64,000 nt of DNA from Fragilariopsis cylindrus CCMP1102 (lineage: Eukaryota; Bacillariophyta; Bacillariophyceae; Bacillariales; Bacillariaceae), in the NCBI GenBank assembly GCA_900095095.1, contig FMBT01000335.1, positions 124,001 through 188,000 of the forward strand, written 5' to 3'. Position numbers and translations under genes: made by a program. The notes under the pieces were generated by a model that did no database searches, had not been told where the DNA came from, and worked only from the letters and a program-made list of their open reading frames with translations. This document shows positions 277 through 1,648 of the stretch, one piece after another; within the stretch, counting starts at the first letter, position 1, and each line of letters starts with the position of its first letter.

Positions 277-786
277 ATGGATAGTATTCTTGGAAAGCAT
301 AATGGAAACGATGGTAATGATATTACTTATAAACAAGAAGAAGAAACTAAGAAAAGGACCGCAGTAGTATCGTTGTTGTTGTCGTCATCATCGTCGTCTA
401 ATTCTTCGAAGAAAAAGAAGTCCAAGTTGTTGTACGATGACAATGATAAAGATGAGGATGAGGATGATGACTTAGAATTAGACCGTAACATTGAATCTAC
501 AATGATTGAACTATTGATGAAACGTGGAACAGAAAAAACTTGTTGACCATCTGAAATTCCACGCAAATTGTTTCATTGGAAATCTTTATCCTCTGACACG
601 AAAAAAGAACTAATGATAAAGACTCGATTAATTGCTTATCGGTATACTGCTACTACAAGTAGTAGTAGTAATAATAATATTCTTCTTCTTGAAGTTACCC
701 AAAGAGGAACACCAATTTTAAATCCAACAGAAGATACTGTGAAAGGTCCAATTCGATTAAGGTTGGTGTCATCATTGCCATCATAG
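277..786 (+). CDS. DUF3253-family protein with in-frame TGA at the conserved Cys; candidate selenoprotein
   Basis: A single frame runs from ATG 277 to TAG 784-786 with one internal TGA at 544-546, giving 169 residues if the TGA is read. The N-terminal ~65 residues are low complexity (Ser run, Lys run, Asp/Glu run). The C-terminal part follows the DUF3253 pattern: a helix IESTMIELLMKRG, then KTC-TGA-PSEIPRKL, a Trp (HWKSL), TQRG, and the closing KGPIRLRL. Known family members read KT-hydrophobic-Cys-Pro-Ser-Glu, so the TGA sits at the conserved Cys and the preceding Cys replaces the hydrophobic residue. Similarity continues across the TGA without a gap or frame change, and no GT...AG intron could remove it. 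Diatoms have selenoproteins, so Sec insertion is the best reading; a nonsense mutation in a decaying gene is the alternative. No convincing SECIS was found by eye. The family's biochemical function is unknown. Confidence 0.72.
544..546 (+). other. In-frame TGA, candidate selenocysteine codon
   Basis: The TGA lies between KTC and PSE of the DUF3253 core. Open frame and family-like residues continue on both sides. In the family this column is Cys, the classic sign of a Cys/Sec pair. Recoding would need a 3' UTR SECIS. Confidence 0.6.
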
Positions 787-1648
787 TCATTATCGCAAAA
801 AGGTGGCGAGTAGCAAGACTAAAAGTATGATGATTCTTCTGCTACTAGCAGAGTTTCGCTCTCATGATGCGTACACAAAAAAAATCTGTGGATCGGATTT
901 GAGTGAGTCAATTCTTTCTTTCGCGAAAACATGAAAAAAGAAAAATAGATCTCCCCTATTTACCTATCAACACGTAATCATGACCGTTACTCCGGAATGA
1001 CAATCACAGATGGACTTTTTTCATTTTCTTATTTCGAAAACGAAAAAACAAAATAGAAATCTCATCGTAATTTGATAACACGGATACAATCATAGCTTTT
1101 TAAGACGATTCGATTCGCTGGGAAGGGACAAAAAGGAGTATAAGAGAGCTACGTATTGGGATTAGTACATAATTAACAGAGTATTCGTACGATAATGTTT
1201 TTTTTTAAACTAATATTATTTTTTCTGAATTAATATTCTTAAATTTAAGACACATAGACACAAAAAACAGCTGGTATACAGTACACACGCATATATACCA
1301 CAATAAAATGAAGTCCGTCCCCGTTCCTGCACTTCCCATTTTTTTTAATACAAACGAATCTTCCTCATTTGACTTGATTTGATTTGATTCATTCACATCC
1401 CTTTCTTCTTCTTCTTCTTCTTCTTCTTTGACAATAACATCCCAAGTTCACCCGTTGATACCATATATATCCCGTCCCATCCCGTCCCATAATTTTCCAA
1501 AACAAAATGTCCCTTTCCCTCTTTTTTCCGATTTTTATTCGTCGTCGTCGTCCCACCACTCCACGTAGAGAAAAAAATCCATGTATCCGTCGTCATTACG
1601 ATATTTTTGTGACTCCATATTTTGTTGGTGCTTTCTTTTGGAGTGTCT
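787..1648. other. Convergent intergenic region (3' UTRs)
   Basis: This lies between two convergent genes and should hold both 3' UTRs. A SECIS for the upstream gene would be expected here. ATGA tetramers occur near 827, 864, 931, 980 and 997. The one at 864 is followed about ten bases later by an A-run loop with CACA/TGTG flanks, but the stem is poor. There are T-rich runs near 1198-1206 and a GAA/TTC microsatellite at 1404-1428. No gene is supported. Confidence 0.5.

Follow-up and report, generated by a model that had tools for sequence, protein, structure and literature searches.

The window, a stretch of 64,000 nucleotides from the Fragilariopsis cylindrus CCMP1102 genome, contains near its beginning a reading frame of 169 codons that is interrupted only once, by a TGA at codon 90, and is closed by a TAG at 784-786 (Table 1). 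Translation of 277-786 thereby bears out the preliminary description, which had reported one frame with a single TGA. If the TGA is taken as a residue, the product is assigned to the DUF3253 family (PF11625; 42.1 bits, cut-off 22.1, E=1e-10), and the domain spans the TGA; no NCBIfam family matched the protein read in the same way. The sequence around the codon is K-T-C-(TGA)-P-S-E, and the alignments show no gap there, in agreement with the earlier claim that family similarity resumes without one. Residues 1-69 of the translation are mostly low-complexity. A six-frame search of the same genome returned a single DUF3253 match, which is this locus, with one TGA inside. Past the TAG, the frame (784-837) continues as SLSQKGGE-stop-QD, matching the tails of the close relatives P0028-P0030; close relatives run about ten residues further (SLSQKGGEQQD), a short stretch that was probably lost from the window copy.

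Table 1. Coordinates of the features at the DUF3253 locus (position 1 is the first base of the window)
Feature	Position	Strand	Basis or remark
Reading frame, 169 codons plus TAG, with one TGA interruption	277..786	+	Translation
DUF3253 domain spanning the TGA, residues 70-163	484..765	+	Pfam PF11625; residues converted to bases
TGT, Cys89, immediately 5' of the TGA	541..543	+	
Codon 90, TGA, proposed to encode selenocysteine, at the DUF3253 Cys column	544..546	+	
Weak SECIS-like candidate: NTGA 864-867, A-rich apical loop, GA 901-902, outer helix	about 853-914	+	

Three protein searches yielded 107 proteins, which were sorted by motif into 62 proteins readable at the TGA column, 12 N-terminal pieces, 25 C-terminal pieces and 8 others. 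As expected of a eukaryotic selenoprotein, the in-frame TGA lies within a conserved domain at a column where relatives carry Cys: the residue is Cys in 43 of the 62 readable proteins, preceded by another Cys in 20 of these and by Ile in 15. The solved structure 2ns0, which we take to be a winged helix, is the same domain by profile (DUF3253, E=4.3e-26), and its Cys falls in the same column of K-T-x-C-P-S-E; the window protein differs from it in having TGA for this Cys codon and a second Cys right before it. The remaining 19 readable relatives have Trp, the sole non-Cys residue found among the 62. The placement of the TGA at the exact Cys column of KT-x-C-PSE, as previously described, holds for the Cys forms and 2ns0, but the Trp forms had not been foreseen and partly count against a simple Cys/Sec pair.

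The break itself is conserved among related species. When the N-terminal half was searched (E up to 10), 12 of the 14 matches stopped exactly after ...KTC, in a design that favours such pieces because the query itself ended at the TGA codon, and with relatives seen as proteins, in which the type of stop codon is not visible. Two of the 12 KTC-ending pieces (P0076 and P0077) were part of the query; leaving them out, the count is 10 of 12. The two exceptions are P0001, which has Trp and continues, and P0097, which is the same as P0001 over its first 52 residues and then diverges, perhaps through an unspliced intron. The argument in the preliminary description that a chance nonsense mutation would rarely hit the one Cys column gains from these matches ending at the same codon, and the other stops or frameshifts in sister species that it had named as counter-evidence did not appear as far as proteins can reveal. 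On the other side of the break, the next Met (residue 113) is the first residue of 25 C-terminal pieces, 23 of which are of the window's diatom type. Four N- and C-terminal pairs have equal longest contigs (P0076/P0015, 2802; P0098/P0031, 5399; P0101/P0019, 5004; P0106/P0035, 924) and were each taken as lying on the same contig. P0107 and P0014 flank the break under one MMETSP transcript number with consecutive gene numbers, each being called complete, which makes removal of the TGA by splicing, another possibility raised earlier, less likely. In the Pseudo-nitzschia multiseries model P0003, unrelated residues stand right before PRKL, as when a gene model dodges a stop. The C-terminal pieces by themselves were rejected as proof, since P0055 repeats a stretch of a Trp-type protein unchanged and P0044 looks Trp-type as well.

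A tree, of which only the topology was used, was built with 15 C-terminal pieces and five joined pairs, leaving out the near-copies P0006, P0008 and P0029 together with P0044 and P0055. In the part of the tree displayed, the window protein, the 20 fragment rows, P0001 and P0003 group together, next to a sister clade of six of the 19 Trp-type proteins (P0002 and P0009-P0013), so that P0001 has Trp at the column though it lies inside the clade of broken genes. No DNA of the relatives was recovered from viral contigs, by protein or by motif, or from genome contigs; one locus (L040) carries the motif with TGG, but it was rejected as relative DNA, its frame being unlike DUF3253 and soon stopping.

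The host genome has genes for Sec decoding, among them tRNA-Sec (15 matches, 13 of them over the gathering score, which 5 of the 14 control genomes also pass) and SepSecS (two matches, best E=7.4e-64). The tRNA-Sec genes over the cut-off lie on contigs C69, C547, C56, C138 and C678 of the genome (G000; L002-L009), and 12 of the 13 form four arrays of three with starts 163-220 bases apart; C69 and C547 may be two alleles. In-frame TGA codons were found in 5 of 9 glutathione peroxidase (GPx) matches, 1 of 3 SelT-like matches and 1 of 15 MsrA matches. In translation, their context is NVAS.[TGA]G in the GPx loci L014-L016 and G[TGA]FW in the MsrA locus L031, which by motif are the active-site positions. 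Of two more families included as control selenoproteins, PF13911 had three matches in the genome, none with TGA, and PF08806 had no match there or in the control genomes. A general code in which TGA means Trp was rejected for this genome, because TGA closes 6 of the 21 long, mechanically called ORFs of the window and thus is not a general sense codon.

For a SECIS element, the text available from PMC2375036 gives a primary rule (NTGA, 10-13 bases, AA, 15-39 bases, GA) and a filter allowing at most two unpaired bases in a row. The rule combined with at least six inner pairs was satisfied once in 787-1640, at 864, by a candidate that falls outside the published filter with three consecutive unpaired bases in the inner helix. 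Its combined helix energy of -10.4 was equalled or bettered by 38 of 436 background pieces (8.7%) and 13 of 300 shuffles; the control loci reached -10.1 (L010), -9.8 (L014), -11.1 (L015), -6.0 (L031) and 0 (L016 and L018), the L015 value beating the window candidate at a site other than that of the L014 element. With 286 background pieces for comparison, the primary-rule score of the candidate (-9.8) falls between the 9.1% and 12.9% marks. Shuffled sequences folded as well in 71 of 200 cases for 845-922, 40 of 200 for 853-914, 108 of 200 for L010 and 15 of 200 for L014, so that the window stretch and L010 do not exceed their shuffles in folding, while L014 fares better. The SECIS check of the 3' UTR that had been proposed earlier hence returned one weak candidate and no strong one, and nothing in 787-1640 stood above background in our own scans, which recovered a convincing element at just two of the six control loci. 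These two are L010, which the stricter rule with at least six inner pairs missed, and L014; the controls without a convincing element are L015, L016, L018 (a downstream exon of the gene of L020) and L031, with L014-L016 lying on the minus strand. At that sensitivity the scan of the window decides nothing. Rfam SECIS_1 found nothing in the window stretch or the genome (133 of 1400 candidates scored), and its negative is empty because it also misses the L010 and L014 elements, which are taken as real. Among the controls, L014 (contig C67) and L015 (C464) are two near-identical Sec-type GPx genes; the 3' UTR of the former has a clear SECIS-like hairpin, and the corresponding stretch of the latter is altered in the stem.

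Taken as a reading of the sequence, the locus probably represents a new selenoprotein family, DUF3253, with an adjacent Cys-Sec pair, to which we assign a probability of roughly 0.7. This reading follows from a TGA at the Cys column, conserved flanks, relatives whose sequences break at that codon and the Sec genes of the host; counted against it are the lack of a SECIS above background in 787-1640 and the Trp in 19 of 62 relatives, including P0001. The Sec proposed in the preliminary description is thus favoured by the conserved break, the Cys of many relatives and the Sec genes, but is weakened by the Trp forms, with a SECIS candidate too weak to decide the matter. In such a gene, the ribosome would insert Sec at UGA90, guided by a SECIS in the 3' UTR, to give a 169-residue protein with Cys89 and Sec90 adjacent just ahead of the conserved PSEIPR segment. 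The selenol might then take over the role of the relatives' Cys, and the pair, if redox-active, could perhaps form a reversible Cys-Sec bond by analogy with the tail of thioredoxin reductase.

The main rival to Sec is read-through of the UGA as Trp or another amino acid. In its selenium-free, programmed form, a near-cognate tRNA, most likely that for Trp, would decode a leaky UGA-C, and the stop would set the amount of full-length protein. Such a mechanism would fit with Trp being the only other residue at the column, even inside the clade (P0001), with the failure to find a convincing SECIS in the window stretch, and with the base after the TGA always being C, the first base of the Pro codon that follows. 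We regard it as unlikely, since the Sec machinery of the genome supplies a ready decoder and some of the Trp calls themselves look like TGA under another code. It is much less probable still that the TGA is used as a stop, with a short N-terminal product or a product switch under selection and the C-terminal half made by reinitiation or never. Gene callers do report two complete ORFs (P0107 and P0014); however, the break falls inside a single conserved domain, the halves alone have no Pfam match (P0107, P0014 and P0076, 0 families each), and the C-terminal half stays conserved. A pseudogene, a sequencing error or an intron removing the TGA finds some colour in the loose end of the window copy, with its TAG where close relatives continue for about ten residues, but is about as improbable, since the break is conserved in relatives (12 N-terminal pieces and one pair with one transcript number) and the gapless alignment at the TGA means that an intron would remove conserved residues.

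The evidence that some Trp calls may be TGA comes from two sources. On the one hand, the 54 residues of P0055 coincide exactly with positions 90-143 of P0011, from the first Met past the motif W up to a point at which P0011 shows a W. These sequences are most simply explained if TGA was rendered as W in P0011 and its motif W is such a TGA; the end of P0055 may instead be a contig edge. On the other hand, of the 333 residues that the 19 Trp-type proteins have in their tails after the domain, 18 are W, and six of these proteins account for them all; the tails of the 43 Cys-type proteins have 292 residues and no W (residues treated as independent, Fisher p 9.6e-6). This excess indicates that TGA was translated as Trp in some Trp-type proteins; for the others, among them P0001, it is no proof. 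P0011, P0012, P0026 and P0050 are public proteins with Trp-rich tails, as though TGA had been read as Trp. If the Trp calls are true TGG codons, Sec would have replaced Trp, an unusual change; if only some of them are, Trp would be tolerated at the column and the case for read-through strengthened. It is conceivable, and we put it forward tentatively, with the odds somewhat against it, that the presence of Sec at this column is ancient and widely shared and that the Trp forms of the sister clade and other protists are largely TGA under another code. DUF3253 would then be a family with Cys and Sec forms throughout eukaryotes whose members have been split or mistranslated in gene calling, and its adjacent Cys-Sec pair, set in a small domain that may be associated with DNA, would constitute a selenium-based redox switch distinct from the usual thioredoxin-type enzymes.

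The C-terminus of thioredoxin reductase is Gly-Cys-Sec-Gly (GCUG). If Sec is inserted, the window protein would share with it an adjacent Cys-Sec pair; unlike thioredoxin reductase, to which it has no sequence relation, it would hold the pair inside a small domain and not at the C-terminus. The eukaryotic selenoproteins of diatoms include GPx, SelT and MsrA (PMC2375036). The window frame resembles these in having an in-frame TGA where relatives have Cys, and the same genome carries such genes; it differs from them in that DUF3253 has no known redox-enzyme fold and that its SECIS is only a weak candidate. It is uncommon for a new selenoprotein family to be found in eukaryotes; one survey, covering 137 algal species, lists 42 families, three of them new (PMC7539508). 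The open-licence PubMed Central papers searched do not mention DUF3253 or PF11625, and the main text of PMC7539508, as far as available, has no word starting with DUF. Going by the available text of these sources, the selenoprotein is likely to be new, but it may overlap with MDP, Hypo (PMC7539508) or the three hypothetical Ostreococcus selenoproteins (PMC2375036). A Sec form would mark one reactive residue of a domain without an assigned function and so make that function testable, and it would show how gene calling hides such genes, either by filing the halves as separate proteins or by giving the position as Trp.

A possible link with the algal selenoprotein MDP runs through P0061, in which DUF3253 is fused to an MGMT-type (DNA-repair-type) DNA-binding domain, PF01035. 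The window protein has only DUF3253, and PF01035 had 0 matches in its genome, compared with matches in 14 of 14 control genomes. From the one fusion in P0061, the domain may act on or near DNA, which we suggest with less certainty than the insertion of Sec. Another relative, P0086, has DUF3253 fused to DUF2256.
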